Shown piece by piece: positions 2,693 to 28,454 of a stretch of 28,674 bases of DNA. The first letter of the stretch is position 1, and every line of letters starts with the position of its first letter. The translations under genes and the position numbers were made by a program. The notes beneath the pieces were generated by a model. The model did not search any database. It was not told where the DNA came from and saw nothing but the letters and a program-made list of their open reading frames with translations. This DNA is from a virus. The stretch lies in the IMG/VR virus record IMGVR_UViG_3300022744_000082, positions 1-28,674 of that record; one strand, written 5' to 3'.

Positions 2693-3880
2693 CTACTTCA
2701 TCCCGAATTGGGTCCGCAGGATCTGCGTGGCGGATTCGCGGCTGATCTTGCCGGCCTGATAGGCCGCCTTCACATCGTCGGCCGACTTGTAGCGGGTGGC
2801 GGCCGGCGCCGCCGGAGCCCGTGCAGGGGCGGCGGGAGCGCCACTAGGTGTCGGCGCAGGAGTACCCGTGCGAGGCGCAGGAGTCGCGGGTGGCGGACCT
2901 GCAATGGGCGTCACACCCATCTGAAGGGCAGCGGCGTTCACTCGGGCGCGATACGCCTGCTTCGACGCATACATTTTCGCGTCGGCGCCCGTGGCGGCGA
3001 TGACCTCGCGACTGTTGGCGGCGATCTCGGCGACGGCGATACGGTTGTCCGCCAGCATGCCGGCCACGGCTTCGCGGCTGTGCGCGTTGATCCCGGCGAC
3101 GTTCTCCCGGCTGTTGCCTGTGATGTTGGCGACGTCACGGGCGGCGTCACCGCGGATCGTGGCCGCATCAACCCGCCCGCCGGCGTTGATCCCGGCGACG
3201 TTCTCCTGCCCTTCGACCCGCATCTGGGTCTGCTGCAGGCGGGTCTGGGCCTTCAGGACTTCGACCTGCGCGGTCATGTAGTCCTTCACGTCGTTGCGGA
3301 CGCCCTTCATCTGCTCGATGTGCAGGTTCACGGCGTCGAACATCTGTTCCGCCGTGATGTCGGGGTTCGCAGCCTTCAACTGGCGGGCGATGTTCAGGAT
3401 CGTCGACTCGGCGTCATGCTGGACATTGCCCGTCCCGGCCGCCGCGCCGGACAGGGGATCGCCGCCGGCGCCGGTCGGCTGCGGCGGCATCTGCGGTGTC
3501 GACGCCGGCGCGGGCAACATGGGCGCGCTGTCGAACGAACCCATCTCCGTGGGGTCCATCCCCGCGGCCAGGTCCATGGACGACTCGGGCAGCTGGCCCG
3601 GCATCATCTGGGGCGCAGCGCCGGGCAGAGGCGGCGCACCGTCACGCGGAAGCGACGCCACACCCGGCATCGGAGGCTGGGGCATGTCGCCGCCACCCAT
3701 GCCGTCGTCCATCCCGCCCGGCATGGCGCCTGACGGCACCGCTCCGGCCAGCAGCATCTGGCCGACTGCCGACGAGGCGCGACGCTGGTTCTGGGCCTGA
3801 CGCAGGGCCGCGATCTTGGCCTGCATCGACAGGCCCTCGTTCATCCCTGTGGTGAAGGATCCGAGACCTGACAGGTTCAT
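2693..3880 (-). CDS. Putative internal virion/ejection protein with hendecad repeats
   Basis: 395 aa. The N-terminal third is low-complexity Met/Pro/Gly/Ala sequence, followed by a helical part and a tract near residues 225-300 built from 11-residue repeats of the form SRE-x-VAG-xxAx. Examples are SRENVAGINAH, SREAVAGMLAD and NRIAVAEIAAN. Such hendecads form long right-handed coiled coils. A Pro/Ala linker leads to a short C-terminal helical motif. Its ATG overlaps the stop of the 531-aa gene by 4 nt (ATGA), and its own stop abuts the start of the M15-bearing protein, so the three are translationally linked. No enzyme motif was seen. Composition and position fit a podovirus ejection protein; this is inference, not a family match. 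Confidence 0.6.
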   Translation of the reverse strand: MNLSGLGSFTTGMNEGLSMQAKIAALRQAQNQRRASSAVGQMLLAGAVPSGAMPGGMDDGMGGGDMPQPPMPGVASLPRDGAPPLPGAAPQMMPGQLPESSMDLAAGMDPTEMGSFDSAPMLPAPASTPQMPPQPTGAGGDPLSGAAAGTGNVQHDAESTILNIARQLKAANPDITAEQMFDAVNLHIEQMKGVRNDVKDYMTAQVEVLKAQTRLQQTQMRVEGQENVAGINAGGRVDAATIRGDAARDVANITGNSRENVAGINAHSREAVAGMLADNRIAVAEIAANSREVIAATGADAKMYASKQAYRARVNAAALQMGVTPIAGPPPATPAPRTGTPAPTPSGAPAAPARAPAAPAATRYKSADDVKAAYQAGKISRESATQILRTQFGMK

Positions 3881-5472
3881 GCGGCCAGCTTCCCGTAGTC
3901 AACGGCCAGGTAGCCGTTCGGCATCCGCGACACGACGTCAGGCCGGGTCTTGCGAATCTCCTGCGCGATGACCCCGATGCGCTGTTCGTCCTCGCCCTTG
4001 TAGCGGTACGAGTAGACGCCGGCGCCGTCCGGCCGACGGTGCAGCAGCACCAGACCTTCCTTGGCGCGGCGGTCGGACACGACGGGGCCCATGGACGCGG
4101 TGAGCGCCGCGGCCGCCTCGGGCGACATCCCCACCAGCGGCCCGATGATCGAGCCGAGCATGTCCATGAAACCGCCGCCACTGCCGCCAGCCAGCGAGTT
4201 GAACATGCCCGACTGGCCGACGAGGCTTCCCAGCCCCTGCATGAAGCCGGCCTGGTTCTGCGACTTGATCTGGGACGCCTGCTGGTTCAGCGCCGTCGCC
4301 CCCTGGCCGAGACGCATGTAGTTCGACAGCAGCGCGGCGATGTCCGACGTCGGGCCCAGCGCGGTGTTGCCGCCGGCGGCCAGCGCCTGCAGCGCGGCGA
4401 TCTGGGCCTGCTGGTTGTTCAGGTACGTCTGCGACGGCAGCTGGGTGGACGTGTAGAGCGTGTTCAGGCCATCAGCCGCATGGTTGCTCGCGGCGCCCAT
4501 CAGGTCCGTCGCGCCGCGGTTGGCGCCGTTCACGATGTCGAAGCCGGTGGCGTAGCCCTGGCGCTGATTGTCCACGCCCTGGTTCATCATCGCCGACGAC
4601 GAGTTCATCAAGGTGTTGGCGCGACCCGTCCCGCTGTTCATCAGGTCGTTGTACTGGCCGGTCGCGGCGTTGCTCAGGCCGGTGTAGCCCTGCGCGCCCG
4701 TGCCCAGCAGGCTGGTCAGGTTGCCGGTGACGCCGGACTGGTAGTTGCCGAAGCCCTGCAGCGCCGACAGCTGACGCCCAAGCTGGTTGTTCTGCCAGTC
4801 GATGTTGAAGTTGCGCGCCTGATCGCCCGCCACGCCCGCGCCGTAGGGCGAGCTCGACACGCCGTACATGGCGTTGATGGCGTTCTGCTGATCCTGCATC
4901 TTCTGGAATTCACGATCGTACAGGGCGCCCTGCGGATCGAAGCCGTTGTCCAGCATCTGATGCGCGCGATCCATCCCGCCCGTCAGGCCGGGGATCGCCA
5001 TCTGGGTTTCGTTCCAGAGCTTGTTGGCCTTGTTCATCCCCGAGGCGTAGTTGACCGGGGCCATCTGGAAGGCGTCACCCAGCGCCGGCATGATCATGTC
5101 GGCGGCGCGGTCGGACAGGACGGAGCCGCGGCCATAGGCGGCGTTGGCGCCGGAGAAGACCGGATCCGAGTAAAGGCCGCCCGACGCCATCATGTCCCGG
5201 CCACGGTTGTTCAGCATCTGGGCGTTGTCGAACATCGCCGGCGCGACCGACCCGGAGGCCATCGCCGACACGTCGTTCGCCCCGCTCTGGGCGCCGGGGT
5301 AGTAGGGATTGTTGGCGACGTTCTGGGCCGCGTTGTTCAGGCCGGGGATGACCTGGCCAGGCAGCGCCGTGGCCCACGGCAGCGCGTTCTGGACAAGACC
5401 CTGGTAGCTCTGGTCCGCACCGGCCTGCCACGTCGGGGTGTATGCCTTCGGGACGTTGCCGGTCTTGCTCAT
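3877..5472 (-). CDS. Virion protein with C-terminal S74-like intramolecular chaperone segment
   Basis: 531 aa, rich in Asn, Gln, Gly, Ala and Met across a long central region, as is typical of internal virion or fibre-like proteins. The last about 65 residues read SDRRAKEGLVLL, then VYSYRYKG, RIGVIAQEI and LAVDYGKL. This resembles the S74-type auto-chaperone/tail-fibre C-terminal domain (SDxRxK, YxYxYKG, GxxAQxV, VDYxKL) that assists trimerisation and may self-cleave. It follows the GNAT gene by 7 nt and overlaps the 395-aa gene by 4 nt. It could be an ejection protein or a fibre/appendage; the neighbourhood favours the former. Confidence 0.6.
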   Translation of the reverse strand: MSKTGNVPKAYTPTWQAGADQSYQGLVQNALPWATALPGQVIPGLNNAAQNVANNPYYPGAQSGANDVSAMASGSVAPAMFDNAQMLNNRGRDMMASGGLYSDPVFSGANAAYGRGSVLSDRAADMIMPALGDAFQMAPVNYASGMNKANKLWNETQMAIPGLTGGMDRAHQMLDNGFDPQGALYDREFQKMQDQQNAINAMYGVSSSPYGAGVAGDQARNFNIDWQNNQLGRQLSALQGFGNYQSGVTGNLTSLLGTGAQGYTGLSNAATGQYNDLMNSGTGRANTLMNSSSAMMNQGVDNQRQGYATGFDIVNGANRGATDLMGAASNHAADGLNTLYTSTQLPSQTYLNNQQAQIAALQALAAGGNTALGPTSDIAALLSNYMRLGQGATALNQQASQIKSQNQAGFMQGLGSLVGQSGMFNSLAGGSGGGFMDMLGSIIGPLVGMSPEAAAALTASMGPVVSDRRAKEGLVLLHRRPDGAGVYSYRYKGEDEQRIGVIAQEIRKTRPDVVSRMPNGYLAVDYGKLAA

Positions 5473-5479
5473 GGACCCC

Positions 5480-5965
5480 TCACAACACCTTCGACCACGA
5501 ACGGTCGAACGTCTGGTAGCCCAGCCGGGCTAGCAGCCTGCCAGCATTACCACGTTGGCGTTTGCCAGCAAAATCGTCCTTGACCGAGTACAGGATGATG
5601 CGGACGCCAAGTTCCTTCAGGGCATCCTCCGTCTCGGTGATCAGCCTCTTTCCGGTGTCGCCCCTGCGGTGGGCTGGGTCGAGGAAGATGCCGTCGTTCA
5701 CCGCCCAAAGGGTGCTGGCGTGGTGCAGCGTGGCGTGAACGAAGAAGGCGTTGTAGCCGATCAGGTCATCGCCGCAGAGCGCGCCGCGGAGCTTCAGGAA
5801 ACCCGAGGCGGCCAACTGGTGATACTGTCGCCAGTCCACGTCCAGCGGCGCCACATCCTGGTGGTCCTCGATCTCTTCCCAATGCGCCTGCATCAGGTCT
5901 TCAAGGCCACGGTCGAGCGCCCAATTCAGGGCGACCCACTCGAACCTGACGTCAGGGTTCCGCAT
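5480..5965 (-). CDS. GNAT-family N-acetyltransferase
   Basis: 161 aa, the usual length for a single GNAT domain. Motif A is visible as DGIFLDPAHRRGDTGKRLI, with the acetyl-CoA pyrophosphate-binding loop RRGDTGK at about residues 100-106 preceded by a beta strand. The C-terminal part (GVRIILYSVKDD, then LLARLGYQTFDRSWSKVL) matches the later GNAT strands. Its start overlaps the end of the oxygenase-like gene by 14 nt, so the two are co-translated. The substrate is unknown. Its position among virion genes suggests it modifies a phage or host protein late in infection, but that is inference. Confidence 0.75.
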   Translation of the reverse strand: MRNPDVRFEWVALNWALDRGLEDLMQAHWEEIEDHQDVAPLDVDWRQYHQLAASGFLKLRGALCGDDLIGYNAFFVHATLHHASTLWAVNDGIFLDPAHRRGDTGKRLITETEDALKELGVRIILYSVKDDFAGKRQRGNAGRLLARLGYQTFDRSWSKVL

Positions 5966-6449: not shown

Positions 6450-6766
6450 CCGCCGGCCCCCACGTTCCAGACGTCGCGTTCGGCGCGGCCACGGAGGCCC
6501 AGCGTCGCCATCAGCCTGGGCGGCTTGGCGAAGTTCCCCGCCTCCACCCACGCCACCCAATGACCGGCCTTGAACGCCGTCTCACCTGCCCAGATGTACT
6601 GGTCGACCAGCGCCGCGAATTGACCCTGCGTGAGCTCCACGGAGTCGTCGATCAGCGCGTCCACCGCCTGCGCTGCGGCGGCGATGGTCTGCTGGGGCGA
6701 GACGTTGTCGCGGTCGAACGCCTTGAGCAGCGCCAGGCAGGGCGCCATCGGGACGGGACGGCTCAT
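6446..6766 (-). CDS. Hypothetical phage protein, 106 aa
   Basis: 106 aa, coupled by ATGA overlaps at both ends: with the L,D-transpeptidase-like gene upstream and the oxygenase-like gene downstream. This strongly supports its reality and both chosen starts. It has a helical N-terminal half (LALLKAFDRD, QQTIAAAAQAVDALIDD) and an aromatic-rich middle (QYIWAGETAFKAGHWVAWVEAG). No signal peptide or transmembrane span was seen. No family was recognised and no function is proposed. Confidence 0.7.
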   Translation of the reverse strand: MSRPVPMAPCLALLKAFDRDNVSPQQTIAAAAQAVDALIDDSVELTQGQFAALVDQYIWAGETAFKAGHWVAWVEAGNFAKPPRLMATLGLRGRAERDVWNVGAGG

Positions 6767-7125
6767 TCAACCACCTGAAGGTCGCGGTCCCCCGAAGACC
6801 AGATCTGCTGGCGCACGGCGCGCGGCAGGATGATGCAGCCATGGCTGGCTGTGCCGGGATTGGCGATGCTGTCGCCGTGGATCCGGAAGCTGTTTCGGCC
6901 CAGCGTGTCGGTGCCGTTCATGGGCGCCAGGGCCAGGGTGTAGGGTCCGGTGTTCGGGCTGGTGTACGGAGCGCCGATCAACCACATGCCGCGGGGGATC
7001 GGCCCTACGCCGACCGCCGCCTGCATGGACGGGTTGTTTTTGCCGCGCCCGTTGCCGGAGTAGCCGCGGGAGACGACCTTGCCGTCTCGCCGCAGTTCCC
7101 CGGCCGACTGGTCCCAGACCCACAT
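6763..7125 (-). CDS. L,D-transpeptidase-fold (Tlde1/DUF2778-like) peptidoglycan enzyme, possible endolysin
   Basis: 120 aa. The core motif RIHGDSIANPGTASHGCI places His83 and Cys97 in the HG-(x)n-SHGC arrangement of L,D-transpeptidase-fold enzymes. The compact size and the opening motif (WVWDQSAGELRRDG, then GYSGNGRGKNNP) resemble the Tlde1/DUF2778 group. Known members act on the mDAP-D-Ala bond of stem peptides as carboxypeptidases or exchange enzymes. There is no signal peptide, so a holin or other route would be needed for access. It starts 3 nt after the stop of the 46-aa gene and overlaps the 106-aa gene by 4 nt. It could be the phage endolysin or a virion-associated wall enzyme; the fold call is good, the role inferred. 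Confidence 0.7.
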   Translation of the reverse strand: MWVWDQSAGELRRDGKVVSRGYSGNGRGKNNPSMQAAVGVGPIPRGMWLIGAPYTSPNTGPYTLALAPMNGTDTLGRNSFRIHGDSIANPGTASHGCIILPRAVRQQIWSSGDRDLQVVE

Positions 7126-7128
7126 GGT

Positions 7129-7269
7129 CTAGGCCGTGCGCGGCCCAAGCGTCTTGGATGCCTTGGCCGTCGCACTGCGGACGGCGTCGTCGTTCACGCT
7201 GCCCTTGGGCGGGGTGTGCGAGGCGTCCTTGGCCTTCGCGGCGTCGTTGGTCAGACCCTTGTGGAGCAT
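7129..7269 (-). CDS. Small hypothetical protein, 46 aa
   Basis: 46 aa (MLHKGLTNDAAKAKDA..., ending GPRTA), Lys/Ala rich and soluble. The ATG at 7269 is preceded by a strong ribosome binding site, AGGAGG, 5 nt upstream. The gap upstream to the 109-aa gene holds the palindrome at 7284-7300. It ends 3 nt before the L,D-transpeptidase-like gene and so heads this translational run. The function is not recognised; it is supported by its RBS, tight packing and G+C-rich codon use. Confidence 0.65.
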   Translation of the reverse strand: MLHKGLTNDAAKAKDASHTPPKGSVNDDAVRSATAKASKTLGPRTA

Positions 7270-7283
7270 CTCGGCCTCCTGCT

Positions 7284-7300
7284 AGCTGGCAATGCCAGCT
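7284..7300. promoter_or_regulatory. Perfect 17-bp palindrome (dispersed operator-like dyad, copy A)
   Basis: AGCTGGCA-A-TGCCAGCT is a perfect 8-bp inverted repeat around one base. It fills the 30-nt gap between the 109-aa gene stop (7300-7302) and the RBS of the 46-aa gene, with an extra GCTAGC at 7281-7286. Copies of the half-site TGCYAGC recur in the other major intergenic gaps. It is likely a regulator-binding site or part of a promoter for the leftward run that follows. Confidence 0.6.
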
Positions 7301-7629
7301 TACAGGCGTTCGATGAGCCGGTCCAGCTTCGCCATGACGTCCTTGTTCTGAGCGTCCATCCGGTCTGTCAGGGCCTTGTGCTGCGCTTCCATGCGCGCGA
7401 AGCCGTCCTTCACGTCATCCCGACGTGCGTAGACGTTGGGCATGTCACCCAAGGTTGAGTTGACCCGCCCGCTGATCCCCTGAACCTGTTGGTCGATGTA
7501 CTCGCGCAACTCGTCATGGTCGTTGCGAAGCGCCACCTGATCCCCCCGAAGCGCCTTTATGACGCCGCCGGCCAAGGCCAGGAGAGCAGCGAGTATGCCA
7601 TCAACCGCGATCTGCGGTACGTCGGCCAC
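7300..7629 (-). CDS. Membrane-anchored coiled-coil protein, 109 aa
   Basis: 109 aa from a GTG at 7629 with GGAG about 7 nt upstream. An N-terminal hydrophobic segment (GILAALLALAGGVIKAL, residues about 11-27) is followed by a long charged helical part suited to coiled coil (LRNDHDELREYIDQQV, then DRMDAQNKDVMAKLDRLIERL). This layout resembles small phage inner-membrane accessory or i-spanin-like proteins. It lies two genes upstream of the L,D-transpeptidase-like enzyme, so a lysis link is possible. No family name is assigned. Confidence 0.65.
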   Translation of the reverse strand: MADVPQIAVDGILAALLALAGGVIKALRGDQVALRNDHDELREYIDQQVQGISGRVNSTLGDMPNVYARRDDVKDGFARMEAQHKALTDRMDAQNKDVMAKLDRLIERL

Positions 7630-7654
7630 CCGCTACTCCCACCTGTTCGATGTC

Positions 7655-8311
7655 CTAGTTCAGGACGGTGAAGCCGATCTGGACCGTGCCGTTCAGGGCG
7701 TTGACCGAGTGGATGTTGGTGATGTTCACCGTGATGGTGCCCGAGCCGGGAACGCAGGTCATGGCGACCGGCAGACCGTTCGTCACCAGGGTGCCCGAGT
7801 ACGCCTGCAGGGTGCAGGCGATCAGGGACGTGGACGTCACCGACGAGTTGTTGATGACGTAGGCGGCGTTGGTGACGGCCGCGGTCGTCAGGGTGCCGGT
7901 GGTGACGATCCCGCGCTGGCCGTTGCAGGTCTGCGGGGTCGCGCCGGTCACGGTGCAGATGGTCTGCCCGAGGCGGACGATGCCGGTGCCGTTGCCGGCC
8001 ACGGAGAGGCCAACGTTGGTGTCAGCGCTGGCGCCGCCTGCGGAGATCGACGGCGCGGTGCCCGTGGCGGCCGGCGTGATCTTGATCTGGTTCACCGCGC
8101 TGGTGACGGACGGGATGTCGATGGCCGCGGCCACGGTGCCCGCGCCGGTCGGCGCCAGGTTGGTGTTGACGTTCGTGATGGCCGAGTTGACGAGCTCCTG
8201 AGGAGTCGACATCGGCGAGTTCACGTAGGACGCCGGTGCGGCGAAAGCCGGAGCAGACAGCGTCAGGGCCAGGATGGCCGCGGAGAACGTCGAGAGGATC
8301 TTGCGCATCAT
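7655..8311 (-). CDS. Secreted phage protein with signal peptide, 218 aa
   Basis: 218 aa from ATG 8311, or 217 from the adjacent ATG 8308; a farther upstream start would cross the promoter element. The N-terminus MMRKILSTFSAAILALTL is followed by SAPAFA-APAS, a textbook Sec signal peptide cleaved near residue 24. The mature part is Thr/Ser/Ala/Val rich with repeating beta-strand pattern. It ends in a segment (VINNSSVTSTSLIACTL, then VNITNIHSVNALNGTVQIG) typical of beta-sandwich phage appendage proteins. It contains several Cys. It is the last of four consecutive signal-peptide proteins. It is probably a surface/appendage-type protein, with function unknown. Confidence 0.7.
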   Translation of the reverse strand: MMRKILSTFSAAILALTLSAPAFAAPASYVNSPMSTPQELVNSAITNVNTNLAPTGAGTVAAAIDIPSVTSAVNQIKITPAATGTAPSISAGGASADTNVGLSVAGNGTGIVRLGQTICTVTGATPQTCNGQRGIVTTGTLTTAAVTNAAYVINNSSVTSTSLIACTLQAYSGTLVTNGLPVAMTCVPGSGTITVNITNIHSVNALNGTVQIGFTVLN

Positions 8312-8334
8312 AGGCCCCAACCGGATTGGCGAAT

Positions 8335-8375
8335 TGCTAGCTGGCACCGTAACCACAAAACGAGGCTCCGGTCAA
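8335..8375 (-). promoter_or_regulatory. Putative promoter with overlapping half-sites, upstream of the 218-aa gene
   Basis: On the minus strand TTGACC (8375-8370) lies 18 nt before TACGGT (8351-8346). The -10 abuts TGCCAGCTAGCA (8346-8335), two overlapping copies of the TGCYAGC/GCTRGCA half-site. The spacing and hexamers match the element at 10672-10701. It serves the 218-aa gene starting at 8311. Confidence 0.5.
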
Positions 8376-8385
8376 AACGGAGACC

Positions 8386-10200
8386 CTAGTTGTGTTTCAG
8401 CAGGATGCTGATCGCCTCGTAGCTGTCGGCGGCAGAGTTGGTCCAGCAGAGTCCGGCAATCGTTCCGGTGCCTAGAGGCGTCCCTTCGGTGATCGCGTTC
8501 TTGTCCACCATCGCCAACTGGCCCGGCGTCGCTGTGCTGCTGATCCGCAGGCGGGTCATGCCCGTCGCCGGCGGCGTCAGCAGATGGCTGGTCACGTTGG
8601 CGTTGAAGTTCGAGGAAATCGCGACGAGCGTGTCGCCGGTCGCCGTGGCGGTCGTCGCCGGCGCGCACTGACTCACTGTGGTCGCGTTGCTGACGATCGT
8701 CTGGATATCGTCGACACCACTGACGTTCTTGTAGGTCGCCAATGCGATGGCACGATACCGGCTACCCAGAGCGCCCGACTGCCAGGTGAGCGAATACTGG
8801 CCGCCTAGATCATTGGCCGCGAGAAACCCCGTACAAGCAAAGGCCATCTCCTTGTGGCCGATGCCGGACTGAAACACCGTCGTCAGGGTCCACACTGTTG
8901 ATCCCGGCGACGAGCAGGCGAAGGTCTGACCGGACGTGAAGAACGACGTGGCGTCGTCGATGGTGCCGAACACGATGGCGAAATCGCCCGTGCTAAGCTG
9001 CGCAGCAATGTTGGACGCGTCGATGGTGAAGGTGCAGGGCGTGGCGGCGCACGCCGTCTGGGTGTTGTTCGCCTGAAACTGGTGGTTCACTGCAACACCG
9101 CCAGGAACCCCAGAAGGTCCGAAAGGCGGCGTCCAGACCGATCCGCCGGTCTTCAGGGCCTGAACGCTGAAAGCCGTAGCAGCCGAGCCGGTCTGGCTGT
9201 CGGCGGTTCCGTGGTTGGTCGCGAACGCCGAATTATCTCCATAGACGCAGATGATCGGAACGGACGTTCCGTTGCTGACGTCGGAGCAATTGGCCGCATG
9301 CTGGACGGGGCCGCCTGTTCCCGCCCAGCCGCCGGTCGGATTGTACGACTTGTTCCGGATCTCGACAGGAATCACCGACGCCTGCGGGCAGGTCACGGCC
9401 ATGCCGTACATCGTGGCCGGCGTGTTCACGCCAGTGCAGAGCGGCGCCGGGCCGATATCAACGAACACGTCGGCCAGGTAGCCCCAGCTATTGTTCGTGG
9501 GGTTTCCGTTGATGAACCCGATACCCTTCGGATCTCCGACCGTGGCCAGGCGGTTGTCGTTGTTCCAGTCAACAGTCGTGGTCGCCATCGTGGTGGTGAA
9601 GTCGCCGGTCGATCCGCTGCAGCTGTTGCACCCCGCCAGCGTTCCGTTGCGGTAGATGGCCCAGCGGCTCGATGTGCCGTTCGACGCGTCGTAGGCGAGC
9701 TCGAAAAACTCCCACTTGCCGTCTGTCTGGGACGGTTGGCCAGGCGTGCCGGTGATGTCGAACCCGTGCCCCGCCCCTCCGGTGGAGTCGTAGAAGTTCA
9801 ACTGCATCTTGTTCGTGGTGTTGTCGTTCGCCATGCAAACCGACTTGCCGAGTTCGCAGCCCACATTCTGGAGCGTGCGGATCGGATCGAACGGGTTCGA
9901 CGACGACAGGGTGTTTGCCGTGGCCGGCTGGGCACGGGCGATGAACTGCCACCAGCCGATATGGGCCGTCTGGCTGGTGCCGCCATTCAGCGAGCAGTTA
10001 TAGGCGCCCAGCGCGCACCCGGCCTGCGGGCCGGCAATGGTTACGGCGCCATCGAAAGCGACGCCGAGGGGCTGATAGGACGGCGCCGTGATGCCGCTTG
10101 CGCTACCGGACCCAAAGCCGCGCATCAGCAGTTGTGCCGAAGCCGGGACCGACAGAAGCGCGACGCAGAGCGCCGCGATGAGCGCTATGGCGCGACGCAT
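8386..10200 (-). CDS. Large secreted phage protein with signal peptide, 604 aa
   Basis: 604 aa from ATG 10200, chosen because it gives MRRAIALIAALCVALLSV-PASA-Q, a clear Sec signal peptide cleaved near residue 22. The open frame continues upstream, but only as a shadow of the 146-aa gene. The mature part is Gly/Ser/Thr/Asn rich with many Cys (for example CALGAYNCSL and CNSCSG), consistent with disulfides outside the cytoplasm. Residues about 80-200 (WWQFIARAQ, WEFFELAYDAS, SRWAIYRNGTLAG) have the strand pattern of a LamG/concanavalin-like sandwich. It starts 5 nt after the 146-aa gene ends. Likely an adhesin or receptor-binding type; no firm family. Confidence 0.7.
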   Translation of the reverse strand: MRRAIALIAALCVALLSVPASAQLLMRGFGSGSASGITAPSYQPLGVAFDGAVTIAGPQAGCALGAYNCSLNGGTSQTAHIGWWQFIARAQPATANTLSSSNPFDPIRTLQNVGCELGKSVCMANDNTTNKMQLNFYDSTGGAGHGFDITGTPGQPSQTDGKWEFFELAYDASNGTSSRWAIYRNGTLAGCNSCSGSTGDFTTTMATTTVDWNNDNRLATVGDPKGIGFINGNPTNNSWGYLADVFVDIGPAPLCTGVNTPATMYGMAVTCPQASVIPVEIRNKSYNPTGGWAGTGGPVQHAANCSDVSNGTSVPIICVYGDNSAFATNHGTADSQTGSAATAFSVQALKTGGSVWTPPFGPSGVPGGVAVNHQFQANNTQTACAATPCTFTIDASNIAAQLSTGDFAIVFGTIDDATSFFTSGQTFACSSPGSTVWTLTTVFQSGIGHKEMAFACTGFLAANDLGGQYSLTWQSGALGSRYRAIALATYKNVSGVDDIQTIVSNATTVSQCAPATTATATGDTLVAISSNFNANVTSHLLTPPATGMTRLRISSTATPGQLAMVDKNAITEGTPLGTGTIAGLCWTNSAADSYEAISILLKHN

Positions 10201-10205
10201 GTGAC

Positions 10206-10646
10206 CTACCGGGTGTAGAGGTTGACGATGTAGGTGTTGGCCGCCGGCGCTGTCGTGCCGCTGTCGGCGTAGTCGGTCGTGACGGCCACGGACAGGCCGC
10301 CCGGGTAGTATACACCGCCGGCGCTGTCGGTGCGGCCCGGCAGTGGGATCACCGCTCCGGCGCCGCCGGTCGTGGCCGCTGGGATCATCACCCGATCCGT
10401 CACCACGGTCGTGCCAGTCGTCACCGAGGCGGCCGGCGTGCCGTACAGCTTCACATAGGCGATGGTCGACGAGTTGTTGAAGACCGTGATGCCGGTGAGC
10501 GTGCAGGGACCGTTGCACACCGCGACGGGGGTGGTGTTGTTGGCGACCTGAATGCTCTTGATGCCACCCTGGACCTGCGCGGCCACGGGCCCGGCCATCG
10601 CCAGGAACAGTGCGGCCCACGCCGCCAGGACCAAACGAAGCTTCAT
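10206..10646 (-). CDS. Secreted phage protein with signal peptide, 146 aa
   Basis: 146 aa from ATG 10646, preceded by AAGGGG 7 nt upstream. The N-terminus MKLRLVLAAWAALFLAMAG-PVAA-Q is a clear signal peptide cleaved near residue 23. The mature domain is a short beta-rich unit (CNGPCTLTGITVFNNSS, then AYVKLYGTPAA, then NTYIVNLYTR) with a Cys pair, like small phage head/tail decoration or fibre-tip sandwiches. It is first in a two-gene run with the 604-aa protein, just downstream of a promoter/operator element. The function is inferred only as an extracytoplasmic or surface protein. Confidence 0.7.
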   Translation of the reverse strand: MKLRLVLAAWAALFLAMAGPVAAQVQGGIKSIQVANNTTPVAVCNGPCTLTGITVFNNSSTIAYVKLYGTPAASVTTGTTVVTDRVMIPAATTGGAGAVIPLPGRTDSAGGVYYPGGLSVAVTTDYADSGTTAPAANTYIVNLYTR

Positions 10647-10671
10647 GCCGGACCCCTTTGCTAGGGTCGGC

Positions 10672-10701
10672 ACCATACAGCTAGCAGATGCCAGCGGTCA
10701 A
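10672..10701 (-). promoter_or_regulatory. Putative promoter with embedded operator dyad (copy B)
   Basis: Minus strand: TTGACC (10701-10696), an 18-nt spacer, then TATGGT (10677-10672). The spacer contains the dyad GCTAGCA-GA-TGCCAGC (plus-strand 10680-10695), so a bound regulator would block the promoter. A further GCTAGC overlaps the TAG stop of the upstream fibre gene (10706-10708). The promoter would drive the 146- and 604-aa secreted proteins. Confidence 0.55.
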
Positions 10702-10705
10702 AGTG

Positions 10706-11644
10706 CTAGCCGATCTTGCGGATGTAGACGTCGGTGTAGATTTCCGCGCTGCCATCCCCGATGGCCGAACAGTTCGTGCTGCCGATGGACGTCGAATAGG
10801 TGTCGAGCCGGACATCCTTGGATCCCGTCAGGGTGAACTGCCCGATCAGCGGACCATAGGTGCTTGCCGGCTGGGCTCCGTCGCCGCCAGCGGTCGAATA
10901 CGCCTGACCCAGCACCAACGTCGCCGCGTCCGTCACGTTGTAGAGCCGGTTCTTGTAGTGGTTCACCGCCGAGAAGCAGACGTTCGTGAAGACCTGCGCC
11001 TCGTAGGTTCCGGCCGGCAGGGTGATCTTGTTCGACGCCAGCGAAGCGCCGGAGATCGTGTTGGTCACGACCGTCTCAAGGGTGCGGGTGTTCCACGACG
11101 ACGATCCGAAAGATGACTCGTTGTTGTCCAGCCCCGTGGTGCGCTGATGCCGGACGTGGACAACACCCGGTTCGTTCAACAGCACCGCGGCGCCGCCCAC
11201 CTGCGCGAAGACGCCCGTGCTGGTCGCCCAGATGTCCCCGTTGCTCGGCGAGCTCGGCGCGACGCCGGCCGGCAGGTTGATGGACGCGATCGACGTGGTG
11301 GGCGTCGCGAAGGTCTGGGTCGTCGCCCAGGTGTTGGCCGTCGAGAAGATCGACGTCGCCTGCCCCGTGCCGCCCTGCGACGCCGACAGGGGCGTGCTCA
11401 GACCCGACAGGGACGTGATGTCGCTGTTCGCGCCATTGTGGGCCAGGTTCCCGTTGGCGCAGGTCAGGATGTTGTTGAAGTTCGCCATGACCTGCGTGGC
11501 GTCGGCCACCTGACCGTTCGTCAGCGTGTACGGGTAGGACGAACAGTTGGCGGCCTTTGCCGGCGGCGCGGCCAGCATGAAGGCAAGCAGCACCAGCGTG
11601 CTGGCGAAGAGAACCGCCATGATGCGGTCGGACAGCTTGGTCAT
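10706..11644 (-). CDS. Tail-fibre-like protein with signal peptide, 312 aa
   Basis: 312 aa. The ATG at 11644 overlaps the tail-hub stop by 4 nt. The first 31 residues (MTKLSDRIMAVLFASTLVLL, then AFMLAAPPAKA) form a signal peptide. The following YPYTLTNGQVADATQVMANF and LSTPLSASQGGTGQ segments resemble the start of phage/prophage tail-fibre-like proteins. The C-terminal half (NKITLPAGTYEAQVFTN, then RLYNVTDAATLVLGQAYS) looks like a fibre-tip sandwich as seen in C1q/collar-like fibre domains. Translational coupling to the hub supports a tail role, yet a Sec signal on a virion protein is unusual. Confidence 0.65.
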   Translation of the reverse strand: MTKLSDRIMAVLFASTLVLLAFMLAAPPAKAANCSSYPYTLTNGQVADATQVMANFNNILTCANGNLAHNGANSDITSLSGLSTPLSASQGGTGQATSIFSTANTWATTQTFATPTTSIASINLPAGVAPSSPSNGDIWATSTGVFAQVGGAAVLLNEPGVVHVRHQRTTGLDNNESSFGSSSWNTRTLETVVTNTISGASLASNKITLPAGTYEAQVFTNVCFSAVNHYKNRLYNVTDAATLVLGQAYSTAGGDGAQPASTYGPLIGQFTLTGSKDVRLDTYSTSIGSTNCSAIGDGSAEIYTDVYIRKIG

Positions 11645-13488
11645 GGATGACCCCCTTGGAAGCCGGTCGCCTGCACCTTGGCGATGAGGTTACCGATGAC
11701 GAGCCCGTCGTTCGAGTTGCCGTAGGCCGTGATCGACATCTGCTTGAAATCCAACGCGTTATTCCACGGCATCGTCCACTGCTGGAAGGCCGAAACCGCG
11801 CCTCCCCAGACGCCCGTTCCCCACACGAAAGAGTTCCAGATCGCGTCGCCGGAGCCCAGACCGTTGATCGTGATCGCGTCCAGCTGGTTGTCCGACTCGT
11901 CCAGGGCTTGGACCGTGAAAGTCTGCTCATTCGGCAACTTCAGGCCCCACGTGCTTTCGACGACGTGGTTGCTATTGCCGGTCGAATTCTCGGGCAGCAG
12001 CGACGTCGTCCACATCCACGTCATCACCGCGGAGTTCTCGGTGTAGGTGGACCCGGCCGAGGGCGTGACGGTGTGCTCCCACAACTTCGCGTCGATGCCG
12101 CTGGCGAACAGGATGAAGTCTGTTTCCGTCGTGAAACAGGGCGCGATGACCGAGGCCGGGAAGTCGTGAGGGCCGGTGAAGCTCTGCAGCGCGAAGTGGT
12201 ACCAGAACTCGACGGTCGGCTGGCTGTCCTGCGACCCGTCCTGAACGCTGACGCGGTAGATGTTCTTGTTGAACGCCGCGCACATCCGGCTGGGGTTGAC
12301 GGCCAGGATGAAGGGCTCGGCGACCCCCTGCCCGAACGCGCCGATGGGCTCGCTGCAGATCGCCGATGCAGGGTCGATCAGGCGCAGGCCATCGGGCGAT
12401 ATGTAGGCGATGCCCTTGGACGTCGCCTGCACGGTCAACGGGGCCAGCGTGCCCACCGTGCCAGCCACCTGGTCAACCCGCAGGTCGGAGGTCGCCGGAT
12501 CTCCGGTGATCTGCCAGTACGGTTCGACGCCCTTGAAGACGATCAGACACTGGATGACGCCGCCCGAGACCTGCGTGGTAAGCGGCATGCCGCCGATGCA
12601 GGTCGCGGCCACCTTGTCGCCCAGCGTCAGCGCCTGGGTCGACGCGGTGCGCTCCCACGGCTTGAGGCTGTCGGTGTAGGCCACCCCGTTGTTGACGCAG
12701 AAGTAGGCGCGGCCGTTGAACTGCGCGACCCACACCGGCCGGGCGACCAGGTTGCTGGTATTGGTGTCGCCGGCGCCGTAGATCGGCGCGGCCGGCGTGC
12801 CCGACGTCACCGTCAGCGCGACGCCGGCGGCGCCCGCGGTGCAGTTCTGGTTGAGCGTGACCGTGGTGGCGGTCATCGACACGATGTAGCTGCTGGCCGG
12901 GATGCCCGCGCCGCTGATCGCATCACCCACGGCCCAGCCAGCCGTCAGCGGGCTGGCCGACAGGGCATTGATGGTCGGGCTCCCCAGCACGGTCGTGCCC
13001 GTGATCGTGTTGCTGGTGAACGACCGCATGTCGATCCAGCCGAACTTCGTCGCGCCGCCGGGATAGCCGGGATGGGTGATCAGGATCCGGTTGCCGACCT
13101 GACACATCGACGGCGGCTCCCACTCGCCGGACGTCGCCGGGCTGGTGGGGCTGTTGGCGTTCGTGACGTTGCCGATGGTGATGAACGCCGCGGCGTCCAG
13201 GTCGTAGCAGAAGGGTTCGTCCTTGCCGGCGTTTCGCGCCGACGCGATCATCCCGAAGGCCAGGTTTCCGATGACGATCAGGGCGTTGCCCTTGGCCGGC
13301 GTGCTGAAGCCGCCGAAGGCCGAGACCTGCACGCTGGCCGGCCGCGGCACGTACTGCTGCACGTTCCGCGGGTTCGGGATCAGGTTCTTCAGCGACGCCA
13401 TCGCGCCCGGGGGCGCGTTGGACCCGTCGATGGCGTCGCAGACGCCCAGCGAGCGGAACGTGATCGGGGTCGCGCCGCGCAGCGGCAT
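11641..13488 (-). CDS. Putative tail hub / packaged-DNA stabilisation protein (P22 gp10-like)
   Basis: 615 aa. The N-terminus (VCDAIDGSNAPPGAMASLKN, then LIPNPRNVQQYVPRP) and the run of short beta repeats with sequences such as ISPDGLRLIDP and FWYHFALQSFTG resemble the beta-propeller-type hub/stabilisation proteins that plug podovirus portals. Residues about 159-228 (NTITGTTVLGSPTI, WAVGDAISGAGIP, TATTVTLNQN) look like an inserted copy of the small VGxxVSGxGIP module common in phage structural proteins. It starts 1 nt after the adaptor gene and overlaps the fibre gene by 4 nt. The assignment is by position and general resemblance. Confidence 0.5.
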   Translation of the reverse strand: MPLRGATPITFRSLGVCDAIDGSNAPPGAMASLKNLIPNPRNVQQYVPRPASVQVSAFGGFSTPAKGNALIVIGNLAFGMIASARNAGKDEPFCYDLDAAAFITIGNVTNANSPTSPATSGEWEPPSMCQVGNRILITHPGYPGGATKFGWIDMRSFTSNTITGTTVLGSPTINALSASPLTAGWAVGDAISGAGIPASSYIVSMTATTVTLNQNCTAGAAGVALTVTSGTPAAPIYGAGDTNTSNLVARPVWVAQFNGRAYFCVNNGVAYTDSLKPWERTASTQALTLGDKVAATCIGGMPLTTQVSGGVIQCLIVFKGVEPYWQITGDPATSDLRVDQVAGTVGTLAPLTVQATSKGIAYISPDGLRLIDPASAICSEPIGAFGQGVAEPFILAVNPSRMCAAFNKNIYRVSVQDGSQDSQPTVEFWYHFALQSFTGPHDFPASVIAPCFTTETDFILFASGIDAKLWEHTVTPSAGSTYTENSAVMTWMWTTSLLPENSTGNSNHVVESTWGLKLPNEQTFTVQALDESDNQLDAITINGLGSGDAIWNSFVWGTGVWGGAVSAFQQWTMPWNNALDFKQMSITAYGNSNDGLVIGNLIAKVQATGFQGGHP

Positions 13489-13489
13489 C

Positions 13490-14272
13490 TCACCACCCCA
13501 GCGTCTTGGTGTTGGGCAAGTTCTGGAAGCTGGCGCCGCCGAACTGGCGCTGGTCCAGCCGCACGCGCTTGGCTCGGTTCGACTGGTTGTCCTTGTTCTT
13601 CAGGTAGCGGTTCAGGATGCCCTGCGCCCCTTCGGGCCCGTCGCCCAGGAACGTCCGCCAGCGGTCGTCGTCCGTCTCCTTCATCAACTCGCCGGCCAAG
13701 CGGGTGATCAGGTACGTCGAGTTGGGGAACCACGGCTGCACGGCGGACGTGGCCGGATCCTCGATCTGGTTGGCGGCCGGGTAGTAGCGGAACTGCGCCG
13801 CGAACGACCCGCTCGGGGGCGGCCAGACGTACGCCTGCGGGCACGGTTCGCTGGCGCCCTGCTGCGACGAATCGGACAGGGACAGGTCGATGGCGAGGAT
13901 CCGGGGATACGACTGGTTCCCGGCCTGCTGCACCAGCTGGTCGAACTCGGTTATGTCGCAGGGGATCAGTTCGCGCGGAACGCCGTCGCCGATGGAGTAC
14001 GTGGCCGAAAGGGCGTCCTTCATCCGAAGGAAGTCGGTCGGCAGGTCCATGGGGCCGGAGCCGTAGACGCTCAAGCCGAACAGCGCCGTCGCGCCCGGGT
14101 TCATGGTGAACCAGTGGGTCTTCGCGGCCAGTTCCAGATCGTAGTCCTGCGCCAGTTCCTCAAGGATGGCGTTCAGGTACTGGCCGGCCTGGGTCGTGAA
14201 GCCGGGCGCCTTGGCGATGGCGCAGGCGCGCGCGACGATCTGCGCATAGGTCAGGGTCGCGCGCGTCACCAT
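13490..14272 (-). CDS. Putative head-to-tail adaptor (connector) protein
   Basis: 260 aa. The N-terminal helical stretch (RATLTYAQIVARACAIAKAP, then YLNAILEELAQDYDLELA) followed by LPTDFLRM and a mixed C-terminal domain has the general layout of podovirus neck/adaptor proteins (tail-tubular-A or P22 gp4-like), which attach below the portal. The ATG at 14272 abuts the stop of the 188-aa gene (14273). It is directly followed by the tail-hub gene, the order expected for portal-proximal tail assembly. This is structural inference only, since no exact motif exists. Confidence 0.5.
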   Translation of the reverse strand: MVTRATLTYAQIVARACAIAKAPGFTTQAGQYLNAILEELAQDYDLELAAKTHWFTMNPGATALFGLSVYGSGPMDLPTDFLRMKDALSATYSIGDGVPRELIPCDITEFDQLVQQAGNQSYPRILAIDLSLSDSSQQGASEPCPQAYVWPPPSGSFAAQFRYYPAANQIEDPATSAVQPWFPNSTYLITRLAGELMKETDDDRWRTFLGDGPEGAQGILNRYLKNKDNQSNRAKRVRLDQRQFGGASFQNLPNTKTLGW

Positions 14273-15853: not shown

Positions 15854-17197
15854 TTAGCCGAAGGTCGTGCTCATGGCCGACGTCGACTCGATGCGGGCCA
15901 TGAAGGAGTTGTTCTCGATCAGCGTGCCGTAGAAGCACTTCCAGCCGATCACCCGAAGCTGGTTCAGCGGGTCCGACTTGTCGCTGTCCTTGAGGTAGCT
16001 GAACTTCACGTCGTCCAGCATCACCTGGCCGTAGGCGCCGCGACCGAAGATGAAGGTCGGGTAGACCGTCACGCCAGTGGCCGGGGCGGCCGGAGGCGTC
16101 TGGGCCGTGCCGGTGCCGGTGATGATCACCGTGGTGTTCGCGGTCAGCTGGGTCGCCTGCCCGGCCATGGGGCCTTGGGTCGGACCAGAGGCACAGGTGC
16201 CCAGGTTCGTCGGCGACGTGGTGGTGCCCACGTACACGTTGAAGGTGAAGCCGCTGATATTCGGCAGGGTCACGGAGATCGAGCCGGTCGGGCCCGTCAC
16301 CGAGATGCCGGCCGACACCTGATAGATGCGGCTCTCGTACTGGTTCTGCGTGTCCGACCCGGTCACGATGATGTAGTACGTGTTGGTCGCCAGCGAGCCG
16401 GCGGTGCCCGCCGTGCCGTTGACCTGCGCCACGCCCACCCAGGACGGGATCATGTTGGAGGCGCAGAAGCGCATCCCGGCCCACTCGCCGACCTCGTAGT
16501 TGTAGAGGCGGTTCAGGTCCGAGTAGGTCCACGCCTGCACGACCGAAGAGTTCTGGCGGAAATCGCCGACCACCAGCGGGTGGATCAGGGCGACGTAGTG
16601 CGGCATTCCCCGGGGATCCGACGAAGCCTTGGCGCCGCCGGCGTCGGCTTCCAGCTTCGTGTCGGTCATCTCGTCGCCGTTGTACCGCGGCGCGCCCAGC
16701 GTGGTGAGCGCGGCCGTGGTGCGGATCACGGTCGTGGAGTCGAGCACGTCGCCGGCGACCAGCGCGGCGCGGGAGCCGCGGCTGTTCACGTAGTTGACCT
16801 GCGTGCCGGCCATCAGCGAGTTGAAGGTGTTCCGTTCCAGGGTCTCGGAGACTTGCAGGGCGGTCAGGTCGATCGCCTTCTGGAACAGCGGATGCTTGAT
16901 GGTCATCTCGGCCACGTCGGTGATCGTGACCTTGTCACCCCACTGCTGGGCCGTGGCCGACACCATGGTGACGGTCATGGTCTGGCCGACCGGCGGAACG
17001 CCTTCGGACAGGGTCGCGAACGGCAGAGGCAGGCGGTTGTAGCGGGCGGCCTGGTAGACCACGCCGCGCCCCTTGGGCAGTTCGAGCGGATCGCCGAACT
17101 GGTAGGCCACCAGCTGCTTGCGGGCGAGCGGCAGGGTCTCGTCGGCGATATACGCCTCGACGTCCGACGAGAACTGAGATGCGGTATTGGTCGGCAT
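15854..17197 (-). CDS. Major capsid protein, N4-gp56-like, with inserted Ig-like domain
   Basis: 447 aa. N-terminal segments TLPLARKQLVAYQFGDPLEL and RYNRLPLPFATLSEGVPPVG and the C-terminal GQVMLDDVKFSYLKDSDKSD, LNQLRVIGWKCFYGTLIENN match what I recall of N4-gp56 family major capsid proteins. Residues about 256-377 are different in character: Thr/Gly/Ser-rich beta strands (NTYYIIVTGSDTQNQYESRI, then FTFNVYVGTTTSPTNLG). They look like an Ig/FN3-type domain inserted near the C-terminus, which would project from the capsid. Gene order scaffold-capsid-terminator fits. The RBS is weak (an AAGG close to the ATG). Confidence 0.8.
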   Translation of the reverse strand: MPTNTASQFSSDVEAYIADETLPLARKQLVAYQFGDPLELPKGRGVVYQAARYNRLPLPFATLSEGVPPVGQTMTVTMVSATAQQWGDKVTITDVAEMTIKHPLFQKAIDLTALQVSETLERNTFNSLMAGTQVNYVNSRGSRAALVAGDVLDSTTVIRTTAALTTLGAPRYNGDEMTDTKLEADAGGAKASSDPRGMPHYVALIHPLVVGDFRQNSSVVQAWTYSDLNRLYNYEVGEWAGMRFCASNMIPSWVGVAQVNGTAGTAGSLATNTYYIIVTGSDTQNQYESRIYQVSAGISVTGPTGSISVTLPNISGFTFNVYVGTTTSPTNLGTCASGPTQGPMAGQATQLTANTTVIITGTGTAQTPPAAPATGVTVYPTFIFGRGAYGQVMLDDVKFSYLKDSDKSDPLNQLRVIGWKCFYGTLIENNSFMARIESTSAMSTTFG

Positions 17198-17236: not shown

Positions 17237-18052
17237 TTAGATGATCTGACCTTCAAGGCGCTTGCGGCGCGCCTCTCGGTCGTTGGTCCGTCCCTGAGCT
17301 CCGCGGGAAACATCCCCGCGGCCGTTCGGTGGACGGGAAACTTGGTGCCGTTCCCGGCCTTCCCGTTCGCGCTCGCGTCCCTGGCGTCCAGCGCGACCGG
17401 CGCGCTCAAGAGCCATTTCGCCCAGCACGTACTTCGCGACCGTCTCGCGGGCTGCGTTGTTGCCGGAGGCGCGCAGTTCCTGCAGGCGCTTCTCGACACG
17501 GTTCGCGACCTTCGCGATGGCGGGGTTCCGGCCACATAGGGCCGAGAACGCCGCCTGGTCGTTGGCTTCCCAGGTCTGGAAGCGGGTCTCGTTGATCTGC
17601 TGCTGGATGCGCTGTTCGCTCTCCCGCATCAGGAACGTGACCCGCTCTTCCGCCGTCATTTGCGCCAGCCGGCGCTCACGTTCGGCGGCCACTTCCTCTG
17701 GCGGGCGCTGCGGGGCGGCAGGGGTGGAGCGGCGAGCCGCATCCAGTTCCGCCTGAAGCCGATCCGCCCGTTCCTTCTCGGCCTTGGCCCTGTCGTTCAG
17801 CCGCTGGATGCGGTTCTGACCTCGGGAGTCCTGGCGTTGTTGGTGCTGGGGCGGTTCGTCCGCGTCGTCGCCATCGTCGGCGTCGTCCTGGTCGTCCGCG
17901 AGATCGGGGTCGTCATCGTCGCCGTAGTCGTCTTCGTCGCCCTGATCGTCGTAGCCGTCATCGGCCGGAGGATCTTCGTAGGCGCCACCCCCGTCGTCAT
18001 TCTCCGGGGCGAAAGCGATTGCGCTGCCAAGCAGCAGACGGCGGATGAGCAT
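17237..18052 (-). CDS. Putative capsid scaffolding protein
   Basis: 271 aa from ATG 18052, preceded by GGAGG. A short N-terminal segment leads to a strongly acidic Asp-rich tract (residues about 18-66), then a long charged helical coiled-coil region (RIQRLNDRAKAEKERADRLQ), and a basic Arg-rich C-terminus (residues about 235-271). Acidic helical proteins with a basic C-terminal capsid-binding tail placed just before the capsid gene are typical scaffolds. There is no protease motif. It is preceded by a promoter-like element, so it begins the head-shell unit. Confidence 0.7.
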   Translation of the reverse strand: MLIRRLLLGSAIAFAPENDDGGGAYEDPPADDGYDDQGDEDDYGDDDDPDLADDQDDADDGDDADEPPQHQQRQDSRGQNRIQRLNDRAKAEKERADRLQAELDAARRSTPAAPQRPPEEVAAERERRLAQMTAEERVTFLMRESEQRIQQQINETRFQTWEANDQAAFSALCGRNPAIAKVANRVEKRLQELRASGNNAARETVAKYVLGEMALERAGRAGRQGREREREGRERHQVSRPPNGRGDVSRGAQGRTNDREARRKRLEGQII

Positions 18053-27927: not shown

Positions 27928-28276
27928 CCACCCGCCAACAAAACACCGACCTGCTGGAGCGGGTGGAGGGGCTACGGCTGAGACGCGGCATCTGGTGCTG
28001 TGCGACGCAGTCGATCTGCTCGCGCCTGACGATCCAAACATCCGGCACTTTCGGGTGGTCGGCGCTTGGGAAAGCTTGGCCCTCGCCCTGCTGGGCCGCG
28101 TGCTGCCGGGGTGGTGCAAGTCGGTCGTTGATCTGTCGCCGGATGAGCCGTGCGAGGCCTACGTCTGGCAGCGCGGCTGGACCCACAACATCAAGGGAAC
28201 GGGCATCACGGGAGCCCTCGCCATCCTGTCCGCCATGCTGCGGGCGCTGATCGCGGAGATGAGCGATGAGGCTTAG
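27924..28276 (+). CDS. Phage ABA-sandwich-like protein with apparent -1 frameshift
   Basis: ATG 27924 (ATGA overlap) opens MTTRQQNTDLLERVEG, then that frame becomes nonsense-like. The frame at -1 continues ATAETRHLVLCDAVDLLAPD up to TAG 28274-28276. Joined at the GGGG run (27968-27971), the product is about 117 aa and resembles the small phage proteins that open LLERLEAATG.. and end with an ALxxxxALRA helix (here GALAILSAMLRALIAEM). Thus either a single G was lost, the base call is wrong, or -1 frameshifting occurs. A GTG at 27995 could alone start the 93-aa remainder. The family call is tentative. Confidence 0.55.
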
Positions 28277-28454
28277 CCGCTCCGTCCGCGTGGTCATTTC
28301 CGTCGTGGCCGTGTTCGCAGCCTTTTACGCCGCCTTCGCCTTCCTGGCTTGGGACTGGAACGCCGAACACTGGAGGGGCCTACGGTTCTTCTACCTGTGG
28401 ACTGCGGCCTGCGTCTCACTTTTCGCCGCCGTGTTCATGTGGAGTGACCGATGA
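28266..28454 (+). CDS. Small two-span membrane protein, 62 aa
   Basis: 62 aa. Two transmembrane helices: VRVVISVVAVFAAFYAAFAF (about residues 7-27) and FFYLWTAACVSLFAAVFMW (about 41-59), joined by a short charged loop. Overlaps the previous gene by 11 nt and the next by 4 nt. No family recognised; it could be a membrane-acting early protein. Confidence 0.65.
   Translation: MRLSRSVRVVISVVAVFAAFYAAFAFLAWDWNAEHWRGLRFFYLWTAACVSLFAAVFMWSDR

Follow-up and report, generated by a model that had tools for sequence, protein, structure and literature searches.

Introduction

The fibres and tailspikes that attach to the tail nozzle of podoviruses, among them T7 gp17, P22 gp9, PhiM1 gp47 and the SU10 fibre, are to our knowledge all made in the cytoplasm as leaderless proteins, and the virions of tailed phages are held to be made wholly in that compartment. 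In T4 and P22, completed particles can receive their fibres or tailspikes as the last addition. Here we describe a linear IMG/VR virus record of 28,674 bases, IMGVR_UViG_3300022744_000082 (the window, by which we mean this whole stretch), in which four consecutive genes encode proteins that appear to begin with Sec leaders. These putative fibres resemble the podoviral ones in their gene place 3′ of a nozzle gene, in the tail-fibre or Tail Collar domains of their kind and in a profile match to SU10 and PhiM1, and differ from them in the leader. As judged from sequence comparisons, the predicted export and oxidation of these fibres are well supported.

Several described proteins share part of this pattern. 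The coat proteins pIII and pVIII of filamentous phages are virion proteins with Sec leaders. They are, however, small membrane-inserted coats of headless, tailless phages that assemble at the membrane without lysis, whereas our contig has the major head, portal-like and nozzle genes of a tailed phage. PblA and PblB of Streptococcus phage SM1 are phage tail proteins with a role on the surface of bacteria, but they have no signal peptide, are released by lysis and belong to a phage of a Gram-positive host. Exclusion lipoproteins such as Llp of T5 are phage-encoded and exported, but are small, carry a lipobox, are not fibre-like and are not paired with a nozzle gene; by eye, none of the four cleavage sites of the window proteins shows a lipobox with its Cys at +1, and no outer-membrane anchor was seen in these proteins. 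One report describes the assembly of filamentous phages via the host secretion machinery (PMC4823517), and another describes WceF of Pantoea stewartii, which has a tailspike-like fold and is exported by means of a Tat signal (PMC7949094). WceF is a bacterial biofilm enzyme with no phage nozzle gene beside it, unlike the window fibres. Phage proteins targeted by diversity-generating retroelements have no detectable signal peptides, according to PMC6199706. A search of the open PMC literature found no report of Sec-exported tail fibres in tailed phages.

Results

An earlier note, made from the letters of the window alone, had described four consecutive proteins of 312, 146, 604 and 218 aa and had claimed for each a signal peptide with an A-x-A cleavage site. 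Their open reading frames (ORFs) lie where they were described, on the minus strand, and a purpose-written rule-based scorer accepted a leader on all four. The features concerned are the following.

10706 to 11644, minus strand: P0001, predicted tail fibre of 312 aa with a Sec leader; Cys of the mature protein at 34, 62, 223 and 292
11552 to 11644, minus strand: predicted Sec leader of P0001, 31 aa, cleavage AKA/A, called by the rule scorer; modelled helix 3-24
11459 to 11545, minus strand: N-terminal fibre domain of P0001 (NGQVADATQVMANFN), between Cys34 and Cys62, from domain-pattern comparison; modelled helix 49-67, at moderate confidence
10206 to 10646, minus strand: P0002, 146 aa, predicted Sec leader VAA/Q, two Cys (44, 48)
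8386 to 10200, minus strand: P0003, 604 aa, predicted Sec leader ASA/Q, 16 Cys in the mature protein
7655 to 8311, minus strand: P0004, 218 aa, predicted Sec leader AFA/A; four-Cys C-terminal domain common to other phages

The putative leaders (MTKLSDRIMAVLFASTLVLLAFMLAAPPAKA of P0001 and MMRKILSTFSAAILALTLSAPAFA of P0004, with cleavage before A; MKLRLVLAAWAALFLAMAGPVAA of P0002 and MRRAIALIAALCVALLSVPASA of P0003, with cleavage before Q) each combine a basic n-region with an extended hydrophobic core free of charges and a c-region of AxA type, the features of Sec substrates cut by signal peptidase I. For P0002, P0003 and P0004 the ORF lister extends the frame to an upstream GTG or ATG, and the starts that yield the lengths given above open the leader. 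Within the leaders, 19-23 of 25 codons end in G or C, matching the local coding sequence. By the same rule none of 20 other minus-strand genes tested in the window had a leader, and the head and nozzle proteins are without one; 4 of the 133 other ORFs in the window passed, of which the one at 28266-28454 is probably a real small membrane protein. Whole-protein residue shuffles passed in 54 of 12000 cases (0.45%), and codon-shuffled genes in 29 of 2185. When leaders were compared in pairs, which are partly non-independent, the pooled nonsynonymous divergence (dN) was 0.12 and the synonymous divergence (dS) 0.36, and one pair showed 9 synonymous changes and no other. The leaders are under selection, drifting in sequence and yet remaining leaders.

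P0001 is, by its matches, a predicted tail fibre. It matches phrog_24210 (tail fiber) at 1e-16, and its residues 137-311 match the tail fibre of Sulfitobacter phage pCB2047-A, a protein with no leader and, by eye, no Cys. Unlike the window fibres, the homologues in the Sulfitobacter, KBNP1711 and S-RIP1 phages lack a leader. P0001 matched 125 records, many of them through a short stretch only, and none of three matched proteins whose N-termini were inspected (L032, L033 and L034; L numbers denote loci) had a leader. A structure model of P0001 had a mean pLDDT of 46.7, too uncertain for judging the distances between Cys residues. The C-terminal domain of P0004 is shared with proteins of other phages, and a tblastn search in phages returned 2 records for P0004 and 1 for the second leader gene of L074. 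Family searches, tblastn in phages and scans of IMG/VR revealed no family or homologue of P0002 and P0003, and solved structures gave no match of weight for P0003; we infer that both are fibre parts from their position, their leaders and their even numbers of Cys. A nucleotide search with 7000-12500 in phages found no match, nor did tblastn in phages with P0003, the portal-like protein, P0002, the fibre of L012, the leader-plus-domain peptide and two nozzles; at the limits used, the window nozzle and the leader-plus-domain peptide matched no record of the phage collection. Scans of IMG/VR with P0001, P0002 and P0003 gave no relative, and genome contigs, when first scanned with the L012 fibre, yielded none.

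A DNA pattern for the motif DAxxVMANFN yielded 67 viral loci with 69 genes and 16 loci in bacterial genome contigs. In some of these relatives the fibre domain starts straight after Met (MSIIGSLPFTLTNGETADATQVMANFN) and in others straight after the leader (...VSPVQA followed by QIIGTLPYTLTNGQVADANQVMANFN), the median distance to the domain Asp being 16 residues from the mature start in proteins with a leader and 17 from Met in those without. Cysteines flank the domain helix on both sides in 18 of 24 sequences with a leader and in 0 of 34 without (p 3e-10, a value which, like the others given here for leaders and Cys pairs, overstates independence because the sequences are related). Among viral sequences only, the proportions are 5 of 11 and 0 of 34 (p 4e-4). 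Before these counts were made, L105, L109, L113 and L115 were dropped as chance pattern matches recognized by eye; a gene of L106 truncated where its contig ends and near-copies at 85% over 44 residues were removed too, and L114, which the rule missed, was set by hand to leader-bearing; prior to the hand changes the proportions were 17 of 23 and 2 of 38. A second domain family, that of P0004, behaves similarly, with a Cys pair in 6 of 6 proteins with a leader and in 1 of 9 that have none according to the rule (p 0.0014). L121 and L123, which on inspection by eye matched the second pattern by chance, were excluded. The exception, L053, has a sub-threshold hydrophobic leader and starts nearly as the leader-bearing L075 does.

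The mature forms of P0001, P0002, P0003 and P0004 contain 4, 2, 16 and 4 Cys, respectively. Of the Cys-containing, non-redundant phage proteins with a leader, 35 of 40 likewise have an even number, as against 128 of 274 others (p 7e-7); these belong to samples of 43 leader-bearing proteins without a further membrane segment and 403 others. Three of the 5 odd counts (two in L002 and one in L003) reflect, by eye, a cut set past a Cys; no correction for this was applied in the test, which is based on 35 of 40. Cys density is 1.44% in the leader-bearing proteins and 0.76% in the others. Even Cys counts together with leader-linked pairs are the pattern to be expected of disulfide-bonded exported proteins.

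The arrangement recurs in relatives. A scan with the nozzle yielded 25 viral loci. Of the 56 contigs that have at least 1.5 kb of downstream sequence, 30 carry leader genes no more than 6 kb from the nozzle on its 3′ side. Near-copies and a small number of probable spanins or lipoproteins are part of this count, and overlap caused some genes to be missed, the L064 fibre among them. When non-redundant genes are counted, 30 of 158 located 3′ of the nozzle have leaders and 10 of 144 located 5′ (p 0.002). About six of these ten 5′ genes are fibre-like by eye, and two others, a presumed scaffold and a capsid protein, are presumably wrong acceptances by the rule. In L002, a different phage with the P0004-type domain, four consecutive genes have leaders or leader-like N-termini, 3 of which pass the rule, and one of the four has a Peptidase_S74 fibre chaperone at its C-terminal end. 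Leader-bearing fibres have Phage Tail Collar or tail-fibre domains (Tail Collar in L053, 6e-14, and L063, 4e-11), and the leaderless fibre of L028 also has a Tail Collar domain (9e-20). A profile built from leader-bearing and leaderless fibres matches the solved tail fibres of SU10 and PhiM1. On a tree of nozzles the leader state is clustered, with at least 3-4 changes of state. The predicted leaders recur over the whole of this uncultured virus group, in which leaderless homologues also exist.

Two variants of the N-terminus were seen in the group. A protein of L003 (5323-6480) with a motif, NLLRNGGFEVWQRG, that we take to be phage-tail-like stands behind a Tat-like leader (GRRALLTGLGALAAGGLL...ARA). 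In L082 and L092, leaderless fibres have a 10-residue basic extension ahead of the domain (for example MFKRLSRYFHLGVIVGPLP), perhaps a decayed leader.

The four leader genes lie directly 3′ of a gene for a 615-aa protein, with which the start of P0001 overlaps by 4 bases. The neighbouring features are these.

11641 to 13488, minus strand: probable tail nozzle/hub, 615 aa, modelled beta-propeller, P22 gp10-like and T7 gp12-like; without leader
13490 to 14272, minus strand: structural protein of 260 aa, 5′ of the nozzle, in the place of a tail gatekeeper, as suggested by gene order only
15854 to 17197, minus strand: major capsid protein (phrog_1357, 8e-40)

A model of the 615-aa protein, made from an alignment of 8 rows, had a mean pLDDT of 56.9. 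Its eleven best Foldseek matches are podovirus tail proteins, those of PhiM1, Pa223, HRP29, P-SCSP1u, Kp7, SU10, VP1 and LME-1 among them. In a second structure comparison many unrelated beta-propellers scored equally over about 280 residues, and the matches of about 400 residues among those listed were P22 gp10 (Z 18.1, rmsd 4.2, 407 residues), Pan3 and Sf6 gp8. The protein is most likely a tail nozzle or hub, because of the podovirus tail matches and of the length covered in the last three. Since it encodes a major capsid protein, the contig belongs to a tailed phage. The minus strand also encodes a portal-like protein, and another of its genes is taken as the terminase from gene order. The gene order, including the 260-aa gene 5′ of the nozzle, is kept in relatives.

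Discussion

We think it rather probable that these fibres are exported, that they fold with disulfide bonds in the periplasm and that they become attached to particles when the cell lyses. In such a scheme the four genes would be the fibre cassette of an uncultured podovirus, and their products, made with cleavable Sec leaders, would cross the host inner membrane and lose the leader. Cleavage would expose the same N-terminal domain that opens the leaderless fibres of related phages, and folding, together with disulfide formation, would take place in the oxidising environment of the periplasm. Once the lysis proteins open the envelope, finished fibres would come into contact with the heads and nozzles of cytoplasmic origin and bind them; the encounter is placed at this moment because the head and nozzle proteins encoded in the window are leaderless. 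We infer leader cleavage, disulfides and attachment at lysis, the last because of the nozzle neighbour, the Tail Collar domains and the profile match to the SU10 and PhiM1 fibres. A more general proposal, to which we would give an even chance, is that the virion is built in two compartments, with a cytoplasmic head and nozzle and with fibres that are exported by Sec (perhaps by Tat in L003), acquire disulfides in the periplasm, are joined at lysis and belong to a pool shared with secreted fibre-like proteins of alphaproteobacterial chromosomes.

The earlier note had left three uses open for the hydrophobic ends: host-surface decoys or exclusion factors, proteins fitted to virions after lysis, or some other function. 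Fitting to virions is favoured by the position beside the nozzle, the Tail Collar and tail-fibre domains and the mature N-terminus, which resembles that of leaderless fibres. Several observations nevertheless pull the other way. Leader-bearing homologues are present in contigs of Bosea, Reyranella, Mesorhizobium, Bradyrhizobium and Caulobacteraceae, where by eye no phage structural gene is evident in the 5-8 kb fetched around them. RHS/YD-repeat-type genes, small or giant, adjoin these homologues or lie near them in L110, L112, L114, L118, L119 and L120 (those of L112, L118, L119 and L120 were examined with Pfam), and 13 of the 18 cysteine-pair cases are bacterial homologues of the beside-RHS type. 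Because these homologues stand beside RHS genes and no phage structural gene is seen near them, the domain module can serve without a virion, and decoys or exclusion factors retain some likelihood for the same reason. The window fibres might then be exported and oxidised but not joined to virions, playing a free or host-surface role such as hiding receptors from other phages, trapping debris or, ahead of release, loosening exopolysaccharide. That P0002 and P0003 match no virion family and are without homologues found would fit this idea, as would WceF, a host enzyme that combines a tailspike-like fold with a Tat signal (PMC7949094). We consider it unlikely, though by no means negligible: in L053, L063, L074 and L050 a leader-bearing Tail Collar fibre lies directly 3′ of the nozzle, and inspection by eye showed no leaderless fibre gene close to it; the mature N-terminus is the same as in leaderless fibres; and, again by eye, the four window proteins show neither lipobox nor outer-membrane anchor. 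Phages may have taken the module from their hosts, or may have given it to them.

Other difficulties concern export and oxidation themselves. In L072 (498-4508, minus strand) nozzle and fibre share a single open frame, about 1337 aa long, in the middle of which lies the leader, with a GTG at the leader start; because no stop follows the nozzle, this leader would be internal unless translation restarts at the GTG. The scorer also accepts the presumed scaffold of L042 and the capsid protein of L029, both with 0 Cys and presumably cytoplasmic. The read-through in L072, and the hydrophobic N-termini of presumed scaffold proteins of the group, would suit a hydrophobic end that is not a Sec leader but is retained, either packed into the particle or anchoring the fibre to the membrane during assembly. 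This we judge improbable, since signal-peptidase-like c-regions recur and the leader sits exactly ahead of the normal start of leaderless fibres. The co-occurrence of leader and paired Cys in two domain families likewise speaks for genuine export rather than for a different role of the hydrophobic end. The window nozzle contains 10 Cys (1.63%) and yet is leaderless. The earlier note remarked that the two largest proteins are rich in Cys or fibre-like sequence. Richness in Cys alone is not unique, and since the nozzle has roughly as much, we no longer count Cys density by itself in favour of the window. Disulfides can also form after release: in AlgoCIS, an extracellular injection system whose class is described as being assembled in the cytoplasm, there is a functional one (PMC13314943). 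Finally, the leaders could be an impression created by chance or by wrong start codons, given that the rule accepts a few other ORFs and codon-shuffled genes; with four adjacent genes passing at the low rate seen in residue shuffles, an arrangement that recurs in many contigs and leaders under selection, we find this scarcely credible.

If fibres do mature in the periplasm, the rule that tailed-phage virions are made entirely in the cytoplasm would be broken, and host export and Dsb oxidation would become part of phage morphogenesis. It would also be explained how environmental phages can use disulfide-stabilised fibres. Annotators would be warned against taking every signal peptide found on a viral contig as a sign of host DNA or of an auxiliary metabolic gene. 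The presence or absence of a leader on the same fibre domain provides natural pairs for experiments.

Additional observations

Some of the bacterial homologues belong to a recurrent alphaproteobacterial locus (L110, L112, L114, L118, L119 and L120), in which one or more leader-bearing fibre-like proteins are accompanied by a small protein of RHS/YD-repeat type and by a large secreted one of RHS or transglutaminase-like type. The presumed scaffolds (17237-18052; L064 4497-5276; L042; L029 5841-6656) have a short hydrophobic stretch and then an acidic region (for example MLIRRLLLGSAIAFAPENDD). The leader of the L029 capsid protein was rejected, a GTG start (VINQAGG...) being likelier and the protein having no Cys.

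Within the window, 3877-5472 encodes a 531-aa protein with a Peptidase_S74 C-terminus and matches to virion or ejection families, with no Cys and no leader. At 6763-7125, close to the place of the lysis genes, is a leaderless protein with a Tlde1/YkuD-type domain (PF10908, 9e-12). A GNAT acetyltransferase gene (5480-5965) lies within the tail region, and by eye similar-looking genes occupy the same position in several relatives.

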